DNA from: Acidobacteriota bacterium
GTDB taxonomy: Bacteria; Acidobacteriota; UBA890; WLXD01
Reading direction: 5' to 3'
Length of the DNA stretch: 33,999 nucleotides
NCBI GenBank assembly: GCA_029263295.1
Contig: JAJCXT010000065.1
Location: forward strand, 1-33,999
The notes under the pieces are model-generated. The model was not told the origin of the DNA and ran no database searches. It saw nothing but the letters and a program-made list of their open reading frames with translations. The translations under genes were made by a program, and so were the position numbers. Every line of letters begins with the position of its first letter. Within the stretch, counting starts at the first letter, position 1. This document shows positions 5,758 through 14,485 of this stretch, piece by piece.

Positions 5758-6840
5758 ATGTCTTCTGAACTCTTGCTAAAGAAGAGTCGCCGCCCCTCTG
5801 GGGATGGCAAGTGGTCCTTTCGCCGTGTCGCTACGACGCTCGCGATCGTTCTCGCGCTGGTTTCCGGTATCGCCTGTTCGGCTTCACCCGTCGAGCGCGG
5901 AAAGAACCAATCGCGCGAGGGCGTCTTCGCCGCTGACCAGGGATACTGGGAAGAGGCGGAGTTTCGCTGGCTGAAGGCGCTGGCAATCGCACAGCTCAAC
6001 GCCAGGGCGCTCAACAACCTCGCCGTTCGTTTTGAACGCGAGGGTGAGTTCCAGGACGCGAAGGAGTACTACGACAAGGCTCTTGTCGCTGCGGCTCCGG
6101 CCGAGCAGTTCTATATCGAACGCAACAATCGGCAGTTCGCCCCCATCTGGGAGCGCATCGCCAGTGGCGATATGGATGATGTGGATGCGGTCGAGTTGCC
6201 GTTAGAAGAGTTTCCCGTCGGTGAGGATCCAAACGTCGGCGTGATGGAGATCATCATCTCCGTCCCCGACCAGGGCCCGAACCTGGCGGGATACGATCGC
6301 GTGCTGATCGGGAACTTCGTGCCCGCGGAGACCTCGGAGTCGAACATCAACGACTTCGCGGTGCGGTACTTCCGTCGTCGCATCACCCAGCGGACGTTCT
6401 ACGAAACCCAGGACCAGGTAGGCGAGCCGCTCGATCCGACACAGCGCAGCGAGGCTCTCTTCGATGACTCGGCCTACTGGATCAGCCGTGCGGCTGACGC
6501 CCGTGCCGACCTGGTGCTGACCGGAACGATTGGCCTCACCACCGAGGAGGAGTCGCAGATGCTGCGCGAGCGCATCCGCACGCCCGAAGGTGAGATCCGC
6601 GAGGTCGCTCGATTCCAGGATGTCGTTACCTACAGAGTGACCTTCGACGTGGTCGTGCTCCGCGGAGAAGACGGCGAGAGGATATTAGACAAGACACTGG
6701 AGGCCGACGCCTCCTTTCCGGTCGAGGATGGCGCGTCCCATTCCGAGGCCGTTTTCGAGACCCTTGAGCGACTGCTGCCGCAGTTACTCGACACGATTAC
6801 CCCCCGTCGCTCAGAGCAGAGTCGCTACCTGATCTACTGA
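5758..6840 (+). CDS. TPR-containing exported lipoprotein, function unknown
   Basis: A 360-residue probable lipoprotein. A basic N terminus and hydrophobic segment (about 23-39) end in SGIAC, with C40 the likely lipidated cysteine; the lipobox is imperfect because position -3 is Gly. Residues about 50-115 form two or three tetratricopeptide-like helical pairs (GYWEEAEFRWLKALAI, GEFQDAKEYYDKALVA). Residues about 165-345 form an alpha/beta region with YDRVLIGNF and ADLVLTGTI, reminiscent of CsgG/TolB-N-like lipoprotein domains; that likeness is a guess. The start has GGAGG close upstream. It ends 21 bases before the Omp85 fusion gene, so the two are very likely one operon and the products may work together at the outer membrane. 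Confidence 0.8.
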   Translation: MSSELLLKKSRRPSGDGKWSFRRVATTLAIVLALVSGIACSASPVERGKNQSREGVFAADQGYWEEAEFRWLKALAIAQLNARALNNLAVRFEREGEFQDAKEYYDKALVAAAPAEQFYIERNNRQFAPIWERIASGDMDDVDAVELPLEEFPVGEDPNVGVMEIIISVPDQGPNLAGYDRVLIGNFVPAETSESNINDFAVRYFRRRITQRTFYETQDQVGEPLDPTQRSEALFDDSAYWISRAADARADLVLTGTIGLTTEEESQMLRERIRTPEGEIREVARFQDVVTYRVTFDVVVLRGEDGERILDKTLEADASFPVEDGASHSEAVFETLERLLPQLLDTITPRRSEQSRYLIY

Positions 6841-6861: not shown

Positions 6862-9786
6862 ATGCGCAGCCCATCCCTCGTTCGCCGGCATCTGTTTGCC
6901 TTTCTGTTGCTCGCCACCACGGCGGTAGCGCTCGGCTTCACACCTCAAGCCCTGGCGCAGTTCAACAACACTCCGTTCTCGAGCACCTTCGGCCAGAACA
7001 AGGTCACCTACGAGTCGTTCGACTTCTGGAAGTACTCGGCGCCGCACTTCGATGTTTACTACTACCCCGAAGAAGAGGCGCACCTCGACGAGGTCGTGGC
7101 GTTCGCGGAGGCCGCTTACGAACGCATCTCGCGCAAGATGAACCATCAGCTCAGCGAGCGGATGCCGATCATCTTCTATCAGACGCACCAGGATTTTCAG
7201 CAGACGCACATCCTGCCGTTCTTTCTGCCTGAGGGCGTGGCGGCGTTTGCCGAGCCTACGCAGAATCGGCTCGTGCTACCCGTGGATGACCCCCCGGATC
7301 AGTTGCATCTGCTGATGGTTCACGAGGTCACGCACCTCTTCGAGTTCGACTACTTCTTTGGCAATCGTCTTGGCGCCGCGGTGCGCGCCCAGCCGCCGGG
7401 CTGGGTAATGGAAGGCTTCGCCGAGTACATGGCGGACAACCTCACGACGCTCGACGAGATGATGCTGCGGGACATCGTGCTTGCCGACGACATTCCGACG
7501 CTCATCCAGATGAGCTACATCGACTCGTTCTTCAATAGTTACGTGCTCGGCGAGGTGGTCTGGAGCTACATCGAAGAGGAGTACGGCGACGAGGGCGTTC
7601 GGATCTTCCTCTCGGAGCTGCGCCGGGACCTGGGACAGGATGTCGAGCGCGACCTCGAGCGTTCCTTCAATGTCACGCCGAACGAGTTCAATACCGATTT
7701 TCGCGAGTGGCTGCGCGATCGCTATCTGCCGAACGTGCTCGATCACAGTGAAGGCCCGGACTTCGCGCGCGGCGTGATGACCGGCATCGCGTTCGAAGAT
7801 CGTCAGCCGGCCTTTAGCCCGGTGGTTTCGCCAACGGGCGACGAGTTCGCTGCGATCTCCGTCAATCGCAAGACGCAGCAGGTCGACATCTATACGTTCG
7901 ATTTCGCTACGGGCAAGCCGAAGAAGAACCTCACAGGTGGCCACCACGGCGACTTCGAATACGTCATCGGGCAAGGGGTGACCGTAGGGTTCCAGGCCGG
8001 TAACGACCTCACCTACTCCAACGACGGGTCGCAGCTGGCGTTCTTCGCTCGAACTCCACCAACCCGAACGCTGTTCGTGGTGGATGCCGACACGGGCAAG
8101 ATTCGCACCAAGTTCAAGACCGAGCTGGACCAGGCCCTGTCGCCCAGTGTTGGCCCCGACAACCGGGTAGTGTTCGCGGCCCACGAGAATGGTGTGCGTG
8201 ACGTCTATCTGTTCGATCCGCAGACGGAAACGCTGTCGAACCTGACGCAGGACGATTTCTACGACTACGCGCCGATCTGGTCGCCGGATGGGCAGAGCAT
8301 CGTGTTCGCCTCGCACGTCATGGGTCACAAGAAGCTGTTCCGCATCGACCTGGCGCGGCCGCAGCAGCGCATCCAGCTGACGTTCGGTCTGTACGACGAC
8401 ACACAGCCCTCCTTCTCTCAGGACGGCTCCAAGGTCTACTTCGTTTCCGACCGTACGGGCGAGCACAATCTCTACGGCATCGAGCTCGCCACGGAGACCG
8501 TGTTCCGCTACACGAATATCCTTCACGGCGCGTTCTTCCCGCACGAGTTGGCCGCGACCGGCGAGCTGATGTTCAGCAACTACAGCGACGGGTTCTATGA
8601 GCTGTACGCGATGGAGTTGCCGGAACCGGTCGAGACGTTCGTGGCCGTGGACGAAGCCATCGACGACGAAGAGATCGATCGCATCGAGGCCGAGGCGACG
8701 GCGCTCGCTGACGTCGAACTCTCTGATCAGAACCGCACGCAGTCGGCGGGTGGTGGCTGGCACATCTCGAGCATCCAGATCGCGGGCGGCTACAGCGTTG
8801 GATCGTTCGGCGGCACCGTTCTAGCGAACACGTTCATCGAGTTTCAGAACCTGATGGGGACACAGACCATCACCGCGGTACTGGGCTCGGTGCAGGGTGC
8901 GCGCAACTACACGGGCATCTATCGCAACTCGGCCCATCGCTGGAATTACGGTGCGATGCTCACCAGTCAGCGGTCTTTCTTCTTCACGCAGGACATCAAC
9001 GGCGGCCTCGATCGCAATTCGGTGTTCGAACTGGACGGCGGCGAGTTTTTTGCCGACTATCCGTTCACACGCGATTGGCGCTCCGAATTCTCACTCGGTT
9101 ACTTCCGACGGGAGTTTCTGCCGTCGAACTTCATTCTGCAGAGTTCCGGCGGGGAAGCGGTGCGCTTTGCGGATCAGTTCCACAGCGGCAACTATATGTC
9201 GGTGGGCGTGAAGCTCATTGGAGACAAGGCGCGTTTCAAGGAGTACGGCCCCTACGCGGGACGCCGCGTGAGTCTCGGAGTTGATGCGGCGCCGCCCGGT
9301 GTGGGCAATATCAACTTCTATGATGTGACCGTCGATCTGCGGCAGTACGTGCAGGTCACCAAGGACAGCCAGCTTGCGTTCCGTGCCTGGGGCGCGGGGA
9401 GTTTCGGTGACGATCCGTCGGTCTTCTACATCGGCGGCCTGAACCAACTCCGCGGCTATGACTACCTCCGTTTCAGCGGCAACCGCGCGTTTCTCGGCAA
9501 CGTTGAGTATCGCTTCCCGCTGATATTCGAGTCGCGCGCCGGCGATTTCGTTCTGCGGAATATCCGTGGATTGGTCTTCATGGACGTGGGCGCGGCGTGG
9601 TTCAAGGGAGAGGAGTTCAACTTCTCCGTTGACGGCAGTCTCGAGGATGCGCTGGCATCATTCGGCGTTGGCGTTGGAGTGAATCTGGTCGGCTTGCCGC
9701 TGTGGTTCTTCTGGGCGCAGCGTACCGACTTCAAGGAGCTCGACGGCGGTCCTGACTTCCAGTTCTACATCGGCCCGCTGTTCTAG
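6862..9786 (+). CDS. Zinc metalloprotease / PD40 beta-propeller / Omp85-type barrel fusion
   Basis: A 974-residue exported protein with three parts. A signal peptide (1-32, cut after ALA) leads into a gluzincin-type peptidase domain (about 50-300) with HEVTH (H154, E155, H158) and WVMEGFAEY, where E184 is the expected third zinc ligand. A TolB/PD40-like propeller follows (about 310-590), with repeats such as APIWSPDGQSIVFAS and PSFSQDGSKVYFVSD. After an acidic linker (about 592-622), residues 630-974 resemble a BamA/TamA surface-antigen barrel: the GGLNQLRGYDYLRFSG segment carries the RGY hallmark of Omp85 loop 6, and the protein ends in Phe, as outer-membrane barrels do. I recognise no POTRA domains. 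Location is therefore outer membrane with periplasmic domains. Substrate and role are unknown; it could secrete, assemble or trim envelope proteins. Confidence 0.88.
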   Translation: MRSPSLVRRHLFAFLLLATTAVALGFTPQALAQFNNTPFSSTFGQNKVTYESFDFWKYSAPHFDVYYYPEEEAHLDEVVAFAEAAYERISRKMNHQLSERMPIIFYQTHQDFQQTHILPFFLPEGVAAFAEPTQNRLVLPVDDPPDQLHLLMVHEVTHLFEFDYFFGNRLGAAVRAQPPGWVMEGFAEYMADNLTTLDEMMLRDIVLADDIPTLIQMSYIDSFFNSYVLGEVVWSYIEEEYGDEGVRIFLSELRRDLGQDVERDLERSFNVTPNEFNTDFREWLRDRYLPNVLDHSEGPDFARGVMTGIAFEDRQPAFSPVVSPTGDEFAAISVNRKTQQVDIYTFDFATGKPKKNLTGGHHGDFEYVIGQGVTVGFQAGNDLTYSNDGSQLAFFARTPPTRTLFVVDADTGKIRTKFKTELDQALSPSVGPDNRVVFAAHENGVRDVYLFDPQTETLSNLTQDDFYDYAPIWSPDGQSIVFASHVMGHKKLFRIDLARPQQRIQLTFGLYDDTQPSFSQDGSKVYFVSDRTGEHNLYGIELATETVFRYTNILHGAFFPHELAATGELMFSNYSDGFYELYAMELPEPVETFVAVDEAIDDEEIDRIEAEATALADVELSDQNRTQSAGGGWHISSIQIAGGYSVGSFGGTVLANTFIEFQNLMGTQTITAVLGSVQGARNYTGIYRNSAHRWNYGAMLTSQRSFFFTQDINGGLDRNSVFELDGGEFFADYPFTRDWRSEFSLGYFRREFLPSNFILQSSGGEAVRFADQFHSGNYMSVGVKLIGDKARFKEYGPYAGRRVSLGVDAAPPGVGNINFYDVTVDLRQYVQVTKDSQLAFRAWGAGSFGDDPSVFYIGGLNQLRGYDYLRFSGNRAFLGNVEYRFPLIFESRAGDFVLRNIRGLVFMDVGAAWFKGEEFNFSVDGSLEDALASFGVGVGVNLVGLPLWFFWAQRTDFKELDGGPDFQFYIGPLF

Positions 9787-9834: not shown

Positions 9835-10614
9835 TTGGCGCGTTTCCGCATCGAAGGCTCGACGATCGACATCGAAGCCCTCGAGGCTCGGGTGGATGCC
9901 GCTATCGAGGCGAAGCGCGGGACTCGGTTTACCGATGCCGAGCTCGAGCGGCTGCGTAGCGAACCTCTCGAGGCCCGGCTACGGCGCGAAGACCTGCCGC
10001 GCGGCTTGATGGAAGAACTGCACGCTGTGCGCGGGCGACTCCCCGAGGTGCCCCCAGGGCCCGGAGCGGAGCCGGCCGCGGCGCCGCCGCGCGAACGCAG
10101 CGAAGAGCTGGGCTCGCAGCATGCGTCGCCGGACATGGCCTACCTGTGGGCGACGGACAGTGGCGGGCTGGGTGGCAAGCTGGTTGGCGCGTTGCGGCGG
10201 CTGGCGCGACCGTTCTTCCGTGCGACGACCAACCTCGAAGGCGCGTTGGTGCAGCAGCAGGACTACTCACGCGAGATGGTGGCCGCCACCGAGCGTGACC
10301 TGGTTGCTCTGGAGCAGCGGCTGGAGCGCAGTTTCGACGTTCTCAAGGACAATCTCGACGCGCGCATCGACCGCACCGCCGACTGGGCAGGAGCCCAGAT
10401 GACGGCCACGTCAGGGACGCTCGAGGAGCGCCAGGAGCGGGCGCTGCATCTGTCGCACAATATGGTCGTAGAGTTGACCAATGCGCGATTGGATCTACAG
10501 CAAATGCAGGCCCGGCTGAACGAGATGGCCCGCCGCATGACGGAACTCGAGATGCGCGGTCGCACGCTGGAGAGAATCACGCTCCAGCCTGGCGAAGAAC
10601 GCGCCAGCGATTAG
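9835..10614 (+). CDS. Coiled-coil protein of unknown function
   Basis: A 259-residue protein that I do not recognise. The TTG start has an AGGGGG ribosome-binding site (9823-9828) six bases upstream. Residues 1-60 are charged and helical, 65-95 are Pro/Ala-rich and flexible, and about 130-250 form a long amphipathic coiled coil rich in Glu, Arg, Leu and Met. No signal peptide or membrane segment is visible, so it is probably cytoplasmic. It follows the Omp85 fusion gene by 48 bases on the same strand and meets the next gene tail-to-tail. The coiled coil suggests oligomerisation or scaffolding; nothing in it points to an enzyme. Confidence 0.7.
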   Translation: MARFRIEGSTIDIEALEARVDAAIEAKRGTRFTDAELERLRSEPLEARLRREDLPRGLMEELHAVRGRLPEVPPGPGAEPAAAPPRERSEELGSQHASPDMAYLWATDSGGLGGKLVGALRRLARPFFRATTNLEGALVQQQDYSREMVAATERDLVALEQRLERSFDVLKDNLDARIDRTADWAGAQMTATSGTLEERQERALHLSHNMVVELTNARLDLQQMQARLNEMARRMTELEMRGRTLERITLQPGEERASD

Positions 10615-10638: not shown

Positions 10639-11406
10639 TCAGCGTTGTTTGGGGATCTTCACGTCGCCCGCCACGTCGCGGTGACGAATGCCGCCCGAAC
10701 CGTCGTCCTGCACGGTGAAGTCGCCGCCTACGGAGGCCACCCAGATGCCGCCGGAACCATCCTCGTGGACCATCACAGAGCCGCGCACGCCGTCGATCTC
10801 GATGTTCCCGGAGCCATCGTCGTCGACGACTACCGAACCGGCGTCGTCAATGTTGATGTTGCCGGATCCGTCAGTAATCCAGATCTCGCCACCGACACTC
10901 TCGAGGCCGATGTTGCCGGATCCGTCATCGATAGAGACGTCTCCTGCGACGCCGGATATCTCGAGGTTGCCTGAGCCGTCCTCGAGTTCGACACTGGCAA
11001 CGTCGCGGATGGTGAGGTTGCCGCTCCCGTCGTCAACGCGGAGCGCCATACCGGATGGGACGCGGACGTGCAGGTCGATGTAGGCGTAGCGTCCGCCAGT
11101 CCAGCTCCAGCCGTCAGGGATCTCGGTCTCGATCGTGACGCGGTCGTCACGTGGACTGACCTCCACTGACATTTCCTCGAGACGATCGGCGTCCGAGGCG
11201 CAGGCGCGCCCCTCGATCACGATTCGGTCTCCGCCGCCGCCCTCGATTACCAACTCACCAGCGCCGGCGATGATGACGGCCAGGCTAACGCCATCCGCGG
11301 CGGTGCGCAGATCGATGTCGCGCGAATGCTCGCAGCGCTCCGCCAAGGCTGGCTGGGCGAGTACGAGGCAGGCGAGAAGAAAGACTCCGACGAAAGCTCT
11401 GCGCAT
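10639..11406 (-). CDS. Exported DUF4097/DUF2807-like beta-solenoid repeat protein
   Basis: A 255-residue exported protein. The signal peptide is clear (1-22, cut after ALA). From residue 126 the chain has seven DGSG[N/G] motifs (Asp at 126, 143, 161, 179, 197, 216, 235), 17-19 residues apart, each followed by a short beta strand such as NIEIDGV. This strict period is typical of a right-handed beta-solenoid, and GSGNI motifs occur in DUF4097 and DUF2807 (head GIN) proteins, whose functions are poorly known. The Asp/Gly/Ser/Asn turns could bind calcium, which is inference. An AGGTG ribosome-binding site lies four bases before the ATG, and a TACAAT -10-like box is at 11421-11426. It is likely periplasmic or surface-located. 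Confidence 0.78.
   Translation of the reverse strand: MRRAFVGVFLLACLVLAQPALAERCEHSRDIDLRTAADGVSLAVIIAGAGELVIEGGGGDRIVIEGRACASDADRLEEMSVEVSPRDDRVTIETEIPDGWSWTGGRYAYIDLHVRVPSGMALRVDDGSGNLTIRDVASVELEDGSGNLEISGVAGDVSIDDGSGNIGLESVGGEIWITDGSGNINIDDAGSVVVDDDGSGNIEIDGVRGSVMVHEDGSGGIWVASVGGDFTVQDDGSGGIRHRDVAGDVKIPKQR
10690..11031 (-). repeat. Seven degenerate 51-57-base coding repeats
   Basis: The DNA encoding the seven DGSG motifs recurs every 51-57 bases, for example GTTGCCGGATCCGTC near 10858 and again near 10912 on the plus strand. Copies differ mostly at third positions, so the array is old and under protein-level selection rather than a fresh tandem duplication. Confidence 0.7.
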
Positions 11407-11539: not shown

Positions 11540-12469
11540 CTAGCGACCGAGCGCGGTTGGCGGCGCCGGCTGTCGACAGTAGCGGATCGTGCCTGCGCTG
11601 TACGAGATAAACACAGGGCAGCGCGCGACCAGAGGCGCACCGATGATCAGCACCGGTTTGGCCTGCATTCCCAGAGCGCCGAAAATCGGCAGGTCACCAA
11701 CTATGGTGCGCAGGCCGGAGAACAATGTGCCGTTGATCACGAGGCCCCCCAACGCGCCTGAGTGGAACTCGAAGTCGTCGCCGCCGAGCCCCGGACTGGC
11801 GGTCTGCGCGCTGTTCGCGAGCACCTCGACACCAGCCGTGCCGCTGCCAACTCGGTTGATCAGCATGCGCCGGGCCCCGGAGTCGAGGAGCGCCTCTACC
11901 ACAGCGCCATTCACCTCCACGCGGTGGCGTATGAGACGCCCACCGAGAAGCTCGATTGGGAACGCGGCACCCAATACGGCGGCGGCACCGTCTGTCGGTG
12001 TGGCGCCCCGTGGGTACATCCACAAACTGCCTGCCGGAGCGTCAATCATCACGTCGAAGCGGCTGAGAATATCGGCCCCGAGTATGCCGTCGAACGTCTG
12101 GTCATCAGAAACCAGCTCCTGGTTCGGCAGGACGATGACGTCGCGGTCATCGATCGAGAATTCCCCGACGCGGAGCGAAGGAACGGTGGCGAGCAGCGCT
12201 GCCGCGGGCCCGCTCGCGCCCTGAATCTCGATCTCGCGGTTGGGCCCCCGCGAGAAGCGCTCGGCGGTCTGTGCCGAAACCGCGGTCCATGACGCGCCCG
12301 TATCCAGAACGAAGCGCAGTGGCACGGGCGCATCGTTTAGATAGACCGGCACCACGAGCCATCCGAGATCGACCATCGGCACTTGGACCTGGGCGCTTAT
12401 GCCAGCGGGAGCACTGGCACTCAGAAGTATAGCGAGCACCACGATGGGGCCAGACATGCGGACATGCAT
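11540..12469 (-). CDS. Exported single-chain, two-lobed retropepsin-like aspartic protease
   Basis: A 309-residue protein from the ATG at 12469 (another ATG at 12457 is also possible; the frame is open upstream to 12601). The signal peptide covers about 1-27 and ends ISA. Lobe one has FVLDTGASWTAVS (D56) and the flap-distal DGILGADIL (127-135). Lobe two has VVEALLDSGARRMLIN (D196) and LIIGAPL. Each lobe resembles Asp_protease_2/gag-type retropepsin domains, which normally dimerise; here both catalytic Asp motifs lie in one chain, as in pepsin. Location should be periplasm or outside. It is in the minus-strand cluster with the HhH protease upstream (180-base gap) and the solenoid protein downstream. 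The substrate is unknown. Confidence 0.82.
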   Translation of the reverse strand: MHVRMSGPIVVLAILLSASAPAGISAQVQVPMVDLGWLVVPVYLNDAPVPLRFVLDTGASWTAVSAQTAERFSRGPNREIEIQGASGPAAALLATVPSLRVGEFSIDDRDVIVLPNQELVSDDQTFDGILGADILSRFDVMIDAPAGSLWMYPRGATPTDGAAAVLGAAFPIELLGGRLIRHRVEVNGAVVEALLDSGARRMLINRVGSGTAGVEVLANSAQTASPGLGGDDFEFHSGALGGLVINGTLFSGLRTIVGDLPIFGALGMQAKPVLIIGAPLVARCPVFISYSAGTIRYCRQPAPPTALGR

Positions 12470-12649
12470 CAGCGGAGTGCTCGGTGGGGGTAACGAGGGA
12501 CCAGGGCGGGCTTCTCCCCAGAGGATAGATAGAGAGACCCGCTCGCGGCCAGTGCGGCCGTCGCCGTTGGGTGAGATGGCCCATGGCAGGAGACGAAGCA
12601 CGATCCTCCCGTGGACAGGCCGGGTTGGTGTGAGTCACGCGGCAGATCC

Positions 12650-14485
12650 CTAGAGCCACACCCCCGACAGAATGGCAGCCGGCACTGCGGCCAGGGCCCA
12701 GGCCGCCAGAATCCGCGGGGCGTTCTTCGCTCCGCCACGCGCCAGCTGCCACGCGACGGCCGGCAGCGCGAACAGGAGCAGGACGGCACCTATCGAGCCC
12801 ATCCCATAGCCTCCCAGCAGCCAGCCGCCGATGAGACCGACCGTTCCGGCGCCGAGTCCGTTGCCAACGGAGCGCAGCCAGCCGGGAGCGCTCGCCGTGC
12901 CCATGCGCACCGTTCGGTAGGCGAGCGCCGCCCCGGCGGAGGCCAGCAGAAGCACCGTAAGAGCACGCCATGCGCTGGGCATCAGGATCGAGTTGATCGA
13001 CAGCGTATCCTCCTCCGACTCAGCCTCGAGTTCGGCTCGCAGCCGAGGCATCTCGGCGGCCATCTCGCGGAACTGTTCCACCAGGTCCTCGGTAATCTCG
13101 GGGACCGTGGCCAGGTCTTCGAGCCGCGCGAACGGTGACTTCGCCCGGATACGGCGCGCCAGGTCGAGGTCGACACCCGGTACGCTGACAAGGTCCGTGA
13201 GCGAAGCGCCGTTGAGATCGAAGGTATGGACGCGCGGCAGGCCGCGATACTGGTCGAACAGCGTTGTTCCTGTTTCGAATTCCCGATTCGCCATCCAGAG
13301 CTCGGGCGGCAACTCACCACCTGTGCTCTTGCCGAGGAACACTTCCGCGACGATCTCGTCGACCCAGCTGGCCTCTTCGGGGAAGCGCTCGCGATAGGCG
13401 ACGATGACGTCCATTGCGGATTGCGGCTTGGCCAGGTACGAGACTTCGGCCAACTTCAGATAGACGTTCTCCAGGCCGGAGACTTCGTCGCGCGAGGCGC
13501 CGAACATCGAGTAGAACTCCTGCGGTGGTCGCGCCGCGCGGACGCGCGCGTGCATCGCCCAGCGGTAGAACAACGACGCCACGACGCCCTCGGTGGCTAG
13601 CATCCTCGGCAACGACTTCGCAGCCCCGTCGGGCGCACCCGGGAGGACATTCTCGAGCAGGTAGGCATTGTAAGGATCGAGGCCGCGGAGAAGCCGCGCG
13701 GGTATATTGGCCTCACGGGCGAAGTAGTTGTTCTTCACGCCGTGATAGCGGAGAACGTCCTCGTCGTTGCTGTACCAGGCGACGAAGCCCATACGCATCG
13801 GCGGTGCGATGGCGATCTGCGCCGCCAGTTCGCGGCGATAACGGTCCAGGTGGTCGTGCACCTTCGCCAGCCGGGCCGTATCGGCGGCCAGTGCGGCCAG
13901 TTGCGGCTGGCCTTCGGATTCGTCGAAGGCGACAGCCTGAAGGTGCTCGGCGAAGCCTTCGTTGAAAGCGACCGCGTGATCCGTGCGCACACCCAGCGCG
14001 TGGATCTGATTGGTGCCTATGTACACCATCTCGCCAACGAGCTGCCGGCGCATGACATGGGCCAACTCGTGGGGAACGATCTGATCGATCGCGCCGAACG
14101 TGCCGGTGATGGGCCAGTCGCTGTCGACATCGACATAGCCGTTCGCGCGTTTCTCGACGTTGCCCAGGAAAAAGCCCTGGCGTGCGAAACCGAACGACTC
14201 CGGCGCCAGCAGAACATAGGCCGGCTCGACAGCCCTGCCCTCCCTGTTCGCCAGGTACGTCTGCGTCATGCGATAGACGCGCAGAATGGCCCCGGACAGA
14301 CCGCGGGACAGTCCTTCCAGCGCGGCTGCCGGCTCGGAGTGCTCCTCGAGTACCGGCAACCCGTCGCGCTCCTCGCCCGTTGGCGACAGAATCACGAGCA
14401 AGGGCTCCTGCGCGTGGGTCACGCTGGCGGCCAGTCCAAGGCCACAGAGGAACATAGAGGCTGCGATGCGCGAGCTGATGCACAT
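12650..14485 (-). CDS. Secreted HExxH metalloprotease with HhH motif and C-terminal membrane helices
   Basis: A 611-residue protein with a signal peptide (about 1-25). The peptidase region shows VPHELAHVM (H139, E140, H143) and AFNEGFAEHLQ, with E176 the expected third zinc ligand: a gluzincin like the propeller-barrel fusion at 6862, but otherwise not alike. Residues 423-475 form a helix-hairpin-helix pair (DLVSVPGVDLDLARRI, LEDLATVPEITEDLV) of the ComEA/Tex type, which normally contacts DNA backbone. An acidic stretch is followed by about four hydrophobic segments between 505 and 610. The likely topology is an exported protease and HhH domain tethered to the inner membrane by its C terminus. 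No ribosome-binding site is evident before the ATG at 14485. DNA binding by the HhH part is unproven; it may serve protein contacts. Confidence 0.82.
   Translation of the reverse strand: MCISSRIAASMFLCGLGLAASVTHAQEPLLVILSPTGEERDGLPVLEEHSEPAAALEGLSRGLSGAILRVYRMTQTYLANREGRAVEPAYVLLAPESFGFARQGFFLGNVEKRANGYVDVDSDWPITGTFGAIDQIVPHELAHVMRRQLVGEMVYIGTNQIHALGVRTDHAVAFNEGFAEHLQAVAFDESEGQPQLAALAADTARLAKVHDHLDRYRRELAAQIAIAPPMRMGFVAWYSNDEDVLRYHGVKNNYFAREANIPARLLRGLDPYNAYLLENVLPGAPDGAAKSLPRMLATEGVVASLFYRWAMHARVRAARPPQEFYSMFGASRDEVSGLENVYLKLAEVSYLAKPQSAMDVIVAYRERFPEEASWVDEIVAEVFLGKSTGGELPPELWMANREFETGTTLFDQYRGLPRVHTFDLNGASLTDLVSVPGVDLDLARRIRAKSPFARLEDLATVPEITEDLVEQFREMAAEMPRLRAELEAESEEDTLSINSILMPSAWRALTVLLLASAGAALAYRTVRMGTASAPGWLRSVGNGLGAGTVGLIGGWLLGGYGMGSIGAVLLLFALPAVAWQLARGGAKNAPRILAAWALAAVPAAILSGVWL

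Follow-up and report, generated by a model that had tools for sequence, protein, structure and literature searches.

What does an Omp85 protein do in which POTRA domains, around which Omp85 biology has been built, are replaced by a conserved and, judging from its residues, probably active protease together with a propeller? The question is raised by a gene in the window, by which we mean the whole 33,999-nucleotide stretch of acidobacterial DNA analysed here. The gene (6862..9786) begins with ATG and encodes 974 amino acids, followed by a stop codon. Coordinates are those of the window, and features lie on its plus strand unless another strand is given.

Peptidase, propeller and barrel share one exported chain

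Using profile searches and reading of the sequence, we found the domains of the 974-aa product in the order signal peptide, gluzincin peptidase, TolB-like propeller and Omp85 barrel. A preliminary description of this DNA, made from the letters alone, had placed a protease, a propeller and an Omp85 barrel in a single exported chain, and Pfam, NCBIfam and the alignment of homologues all bear this out. The N-terminal export signal (residues 1-32, 6862..6957), as read from the sequence, ends in ALA, followed by Q, and is without a lipobox. Just after it stands FGQNKVTY, a motif kept in an alignment of 30 homologues, which carry a hydrophobic leader at the N-terminus and then a conserved (Y/F)GKNKVxY. 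This alignment reaches down to about 28% identity and covers many families of Acidobacteriota. Mean pairwise identity falls from 43% in the peptidase, the best-conserved domain of the chain, to 37.5% in the propeller, 34.5% in the barrel and 19% in the linker that precedes the barrel. We take an antisense open reading frame (7276-8763) to be a mere shadow of this coding sequence.

Structures were predicted for residues 33-974 and 45-315 with an alignment of three near-identical sequences. Because the alignments were shallow, both predictions are of low confidence (mean pLDDT 33.3 and 34.1, pTM 0.34 and 0.24, respectively); in the prediction of residues 33-974, the propeller is the one part that reaches pLDDT of 70-80. 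With mean pLDDT at about 33-34, homology is the basis for both the zinc geometry and the 16 strands of the barrel.

The predicted zinc site is invariant

The gluzincin (Peptidase MA clan) domain spans about residues 45-312 (6994..7797), as delimited by a Peptidase_MA_2 match and by the matches of homologues. A Pfam search of the 974-aa protein returned no peptidase family above cut-off; specifically, positions 5-199 of the 201 in the Peptidase_MA_2 model align to residues 85-284 with E=5e-4 and 20.5 bits, below the cut-off of 32.4. The same model is matched by 24 of the 30 homologous N-terminal domains, at best with E=1.7e-8, and weaker matches of these domains include the metallopeptidase families BSP, M9, M61, M1 and DUF2268. 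The genome encodes a second Peptidase_MA_2 protein, with an open frame of 967 aa, which lies over the Pfam cut-off (G000:C27:28400-28876, minus strand).

Within the domain, HEVTH (residues 154-158, 7321..7335) is predicted to provide two zinc ligands, H154 and H158, and the catalytic E155, while E184 (7411..7413) in EGFAEY (residues 184-189) is the predicted third ligand, giving the spacing HExxH-x25-E. Y227 of YxxG (7540..7542) is probably the transition-state-stabilising tyrosine, as in M1 peptidases. All five residues are invariant across the 30 homologues, so that HEVTH is no chance motif, and five paralogous loci and a Salinibacter relative without a barrel retain them as well. The gluzincin site that had been recognised from HEVTH and EGFAEY is thus upheld, HExxH and the downstream glutamate being invariant in the 30 homologues and in these six further relatives. 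With a profile of the homologues, the sole peptidase matched in the PDB is a cold-active aminopeptidase, 3cia, which we take to be of M1 type; the match is weak (E=0.029), and in it HELAH, NEG and Y-x-K-G align with HExxH, E184 and Y227. A further glutamate, E131 in AFAEP (7252..7254), lies 23 residues before HExxH and is at least 90% conserved. It may correspond to the glutamate in the GAMEN motif of M1 aminopeptidases, a comparison that is tentative because the residue is missing in a few homologues.

Invariant catalytic residues in the most conserved domain of the chain form the pattern expected of an active enzyme. Read from the alignment, the zinc site is under strong selection and the zinc peptidase is probably active. 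These residues also weigh on a reading in which the peptidase fold is a mere binding scaffold and the protein an envelope-bridging, TolB-like anchor. Such an anchor would suit the resemblance of the propeller to TolB and the CsgG/FlgT-like domain encoded in the neighbouring gene, a domain type with a weak relationship to TolB-N. However, a dead enzyme would not be expected to keep HExxH, E184 and Y227 without exception in homologues that have diverged so far, and the genome has a real TolB, which makes this the most improbable of the readings considered here.

A TolB-like propeller precedes a BamA-like barrel without POTRA

The TolB-like beta-propeller occupies about residues 315-590 (7804..8631) and has six blades by eye. 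Pfam PD40 matches above cut-off (E=3.4e-17), confirming the PD40-like repeats noticed earlier, and the NCBIfam TolB model TIGR02800 matches in support (E=5.4e-31, 108 bits), at a score far under its 343-bit cut-off. The profile of the 30 homologues matches TolB entries in the PDB with E down to 2.4e-32. Pfam finds no TolB_N in the 974-aa protein. Behind the propeller follows a variable linker (about residues 591-640, 8632..8781), whose 50 residues are too short for a POTRA domain.

The rest of the chain, about residues 641-974 (8782..9783), is an Omp85 barrel of the 16-strand type, the strand number being predicted from homology. Pfam Omp85 (PF01103) covers residues 794-971 above cut-off (E=5.9e-15), positions 398-739 of the 741 in the NCBIfam BamA model align to residues 636-972 (E=4.9e-14), the 30-homologue profile matches BamA structures in the PDB, and hhalign of the barrel to the BamA of its own genome gives 92.8%. 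In the loop-6 motif LRGY (residues 863-866, 9448..9459), R864 is invariant in the 30 homologues and G865 is lost in three of them (L034-L036). The chain ends in Phe974 (9781..9783), the end of the beta-signal, a position that is Phe in at least 90% of homologues and otherwise Trp. An Omp85 barrel with LRGY and a terminal Phe, as first described, is therefore supported by profiles over cut-off, by the invariant R864 and by F974.

We found no match to POTRA families in any of the 30 homologues with a profile library that, as a positive control, recognises POTRA in both canonical Omp85 proteins of the genome, four stretches in one and three in the other. A profile made from POTRA domains of this genome gave E values of at least 0.95 on the 30 homologues, against 3e-11 to 6e-4 in leave-one-out controls. 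Using hhalign against POTRA, residues 45-200, 195-315 and 575-660 and the barrel gave probabilities of 0.1-0.3%, against 93.7% for the control. These profile tests with positive controls agree with the preliminary description, which had recognised no POTRA. It had also proposed residues 200-310 as a place to look for a POTRA-like fold; this candidate was rejected, since the POTRA tests are negative and the region lies mostly under Peptidase_MA_2, where it makes up, for the most part, the C-terminal half of the peptidase domain.

Barrel and missing POTRA together bear on the possibility that the protein is a specialised OMP insertase, in which the barrel would fold certain OMPs, the propeller would act as BamB, a TPR protein as BamD, and the peptidase would remove stalled substrates. 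The barrel is BamA-like along its whole length with R864 conserved, a TPR partner is encoded next to the gene, and POTRA-less WD40-Omp85 proteins, described by Heinz & Lithgow in 2014, were likened to a BamA-BamB fusion in the main text of that paper (PMC4104836). Yet the substrate-receiving element of known insertases, POTRA, is absent, the genome encodes a canonical BamA as well, the sequence of the propeller resembles TolB with no BamB model among the reported matches, and the peptidase is conserved more strongly than the barrel. We consider an insertase of this kind unlikely.

A secreted partner is encoded upstream in most loci

The gene directly upstream (5758..6840), which ends 21 nt before the peptidase-Omp85 gene, encodes a 360-aa protein with an export signal, a TPR found by Pfam, and a CsgG/FlgT_M-like domain suggested by weak profiles. 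Its family is present in 24 of 33 homologous loci. Wherever distances were measured, the partner reads in the same direction and lies immediately upstream, and the two often overlap or are separated by no more than about 30 nt. At many loci the partner is split into two genes, a TPR protein followed by the second domain. No partner was seen next to members of the paralogous branch (L080-L084) or of the subgroup formed by L066, L067, L069 and L070. By eye, the leaders of the family include several lipoprotein signals, others being plain signal peptides. FlgT_M is matched in three family members below cut-off (best E=1e-4), and hhalign of the second domain against CsgG gives 39%, compared with 0.2% for a reversed control, which is suggestive only of a relationship to CsgG/FlgT_M-type domains. 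TolB_N was also tried for the second domain and is unsupported (hhalign 2.2%). Since a secreted partner is encoded directly upstream in most of the loci examined, the earlier picture of a "self-contained" outer-membrane machine is not established.

Directly downstream lies a 259-aa open reading frame (9835-10614, plus strand) that is coiled-coil-like by eye and whose family is kept in 6 loci, the nearest relatives among them. Further along, the minus strand contains frames for an exported protein of 255 aa in which DDGSGNI motifs recur and which is weakly LiaG-like (10639-11406), a 353-aa retropepsin-like aspartyl protease with two Asp_protease_2 stretches in one chain (11540-12601), and a 611-aa open reading frame with a match to HHH_3 (helix-hairpin-helix) and little else recognised (12650-14485).

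A further reading is a secretion machine. In two-partner or autotransport-style secretion, the barrel would export its own peptidase-propeller portion or a dedicated exoprotein, and the protease would trim the cargo. Protein translocation is carried out by FhaC and Toc75, both related to Omp85, and had at one time been suggested for PlpD, as the main text of the 2014 paper relates (PMC4104836). However, no conserved large exoprotein gene adjoins in the 33 loci, the folded peptidase and propeller to be moved across amount to about 560 residues, and the enzyme domain of PlpD stays periplasmic (PMC11116518). Secretion thus appears improbable to us, although less so than the scaffold.

The protein is an addition to BAM and Tol-Pal

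The source genome, which is incomplete (78%), contains five Omp85 barrels: a four-POTRA protein taken as BamA, a three-POTRA protein, a patatin-Omp85, one protein with no recognised N-terminal domain, and the peptidase-propeller-Omp85 protein. A separate, true TolB with TolB_N is encoded at C12 of the same genome. The peptidase-propeller-Omp85 protein was rejected as the BamA of this genome, where a canonical POTRA-bearing BamA is present elsewhere, and hence does not replace BAM; likewise, it was rejected as TolB because of the true TolB at C12. It is an addition to BAM and Tol-Pal, and the cell's own BamA, second POTRA Omp85 and separate TolB make a dedicated extra role likely. The patatin-Omp85 is PlpD-like and 733 aa long (L088:3690-5888, minus strand, G000:C52), so the cell has two different enzyme-Omp85 fusions. 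The Omp85 with the unrecognised N-terminal domain is 430 aa long (L087:2495-3787, plus strand, G000:C21) and follows a 333-aa open reading frame without a Pfam match.

Close relatives of the source acidobacterium are represented by WLXD01000001.1 and JAJCXS010000253.1. A strong homologue match, mostly of full length, occurs in 99 of 199 Acidobacteriota genomes, so a search for the same architecture, as suggested at the outset, finds a relative in about half of those sampled; among high-quality genomes the count is 88 of 179, and homologues occur in 70 of 120 genera. The paralogous branch has the same architecture with an intact catalytic site (L080-L084), and some genomes contain both forms. 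Beyond Acidobacteriota, we searched plasmid records and viral contigs. The viral contigs contained no relative; a Salinibacter ruber plasmid carries the peptidase and propeller without a barrel (WP_118831798.1), indicating that these two soluble domains can stand as a separate unit. Since roughly every second genome sampled from this major soil phylum encodes a relative, in most cases next to a gene of the partner family, the protein offers a handle on POTRA-less Omp85 subfamilies.

A peptidase anchored at the outer membrane is the favoured reading

We favour, with a probability of about one half, a zinc peptidase of the periplasm that its barrel would anchor to the outer membrane, with the propeller choosing or gating the substrate and the upstream protein assisting. 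Once the chain has been exported by Sec, the ordinary BamA would fold the C-terminal barrel into the outer membrane, whereas both the propeller and the M1/M61-like gluzincin domain would remain in the periplasm. There, the propeller may capture or gate, for the peptidase, either polypeptide substrates or a partner in the envelope, and the secreted protein encoded alongside, with its TPR and CsgG/FlgT-like domains, would help. By analogy with BepA beside BAM, the job would likely be envelope-protein processing or quality control near the outer membrane.

In BamA and related proteins, the R/LRGY motif is part of a barrel with insertase or translocase activity. The conservation of R864 and LRGY is thus more than a mere anchor requires and counts against the anchored peptidase, as do the low-confidence structure predictions and the Peptidase_MA_2 score below cut-off. 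A proofreading machine, close to the idea in the preliminary description of a machine that could cut what it inserts or secretes, is a possible but doubtful alternative: the POTRA-less barrel would itself handle an OMP or secreted substrate that the integral protease cleaves, with the propeller gating and the TPR/CsgG-like partner assisting. The anchored periplasmic peptidase is favoured because the catalytic positions are invariant in what is the best-conserved domain, and because the PlpD enzyme stays periplasmic (PMC11116518) and BepA provides a precedent (PMC8423444).

Comparison with known systems

The protein shares with BamA a C-terminal Omp85 barrel, an LRGY-type loop 6 and a terminal Phe, whereas BamA has several POTRA domains (four in the genome's own BamA) and none is recognised here. 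With TolB it shares the propeller, and TolB_N, found in true TolB, is absent. The "basic secretory protein-like protein" of Salinibacter ruber, WP_118831798.1, has the same peptidase and propeller, about 29% identical over residues 43-579, but its chain stops after the propeller. In BepA, TPR is part of the protein itself. Here TPR lies on the partner protein, and an M1/M61-like gluzincin is fused to Omp85, whereas BepA is an M48 peptidase unfused to a barrel; shared are TPR and a zinc peptidase at the outer membrane (predicted in our case), which in BepA acts on an OMP at BAM, either promoting its assembly or degrading it (PMC8423444). PlpD and other patatin-Omp85 proteins also place an enzyme before the Omp85 barrel, shown to remain on the periplasmic side in PlpD (PMC11116518), and combine a patatin lipase with one POTRA where the present protein combines a peptidase with a propeller.

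An enzyme domain preceding the barrel is likewise a feature of the "Metallo" Omp85 group (PMC4104836), but that domain is PF00149 and the one here a gluzincin. Section 10 of the paper labels PF00149 a metalloprotease domain; its Pfam name is Metallophos, so the published group, as presented there, differs from a zinc-protease Omp85. Pfam finds no Metallophos match in the 974-aa protein, and identity with a Metallophos-Omp85 was rejected on this ground. While the published "metalloprotease" group rests on Metallophos in that account, a zinc-protease Omp85 appears to be what the present protein is.

The closest published likeness is WD40-Omp85 (PMC4104836), which has an Omp85 barrel after a TolB-like WD40/PD40 propeller and no POTRA. 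Compared with the main text of that paper, the two are likely the same group; this text mentions no N-terminal zinc peptidase and no partner gene. In 2024, the WD40 and metalloprotease Omp85 subfamilies were still described as not well characterized (PMC11116518). Whether the architecture had been studied was a question left by the preliminary description, and the answer is divided: POTRA-less propeller-Omp85 proteins are catalogued in the main text of PMC4104836, but we found no study that includes the protease and no experimental study of the peptidase-propeller-Omp85 combination, in a search that most of the subscription literature lies outside. Set against that main text, an intact protease and a partner gene of a WD40-Omp85-type protein appear to be unreported. 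The architecture is thus of a catalogued but unstudied kind, to which the conserved protease and its partner gene are the new part.
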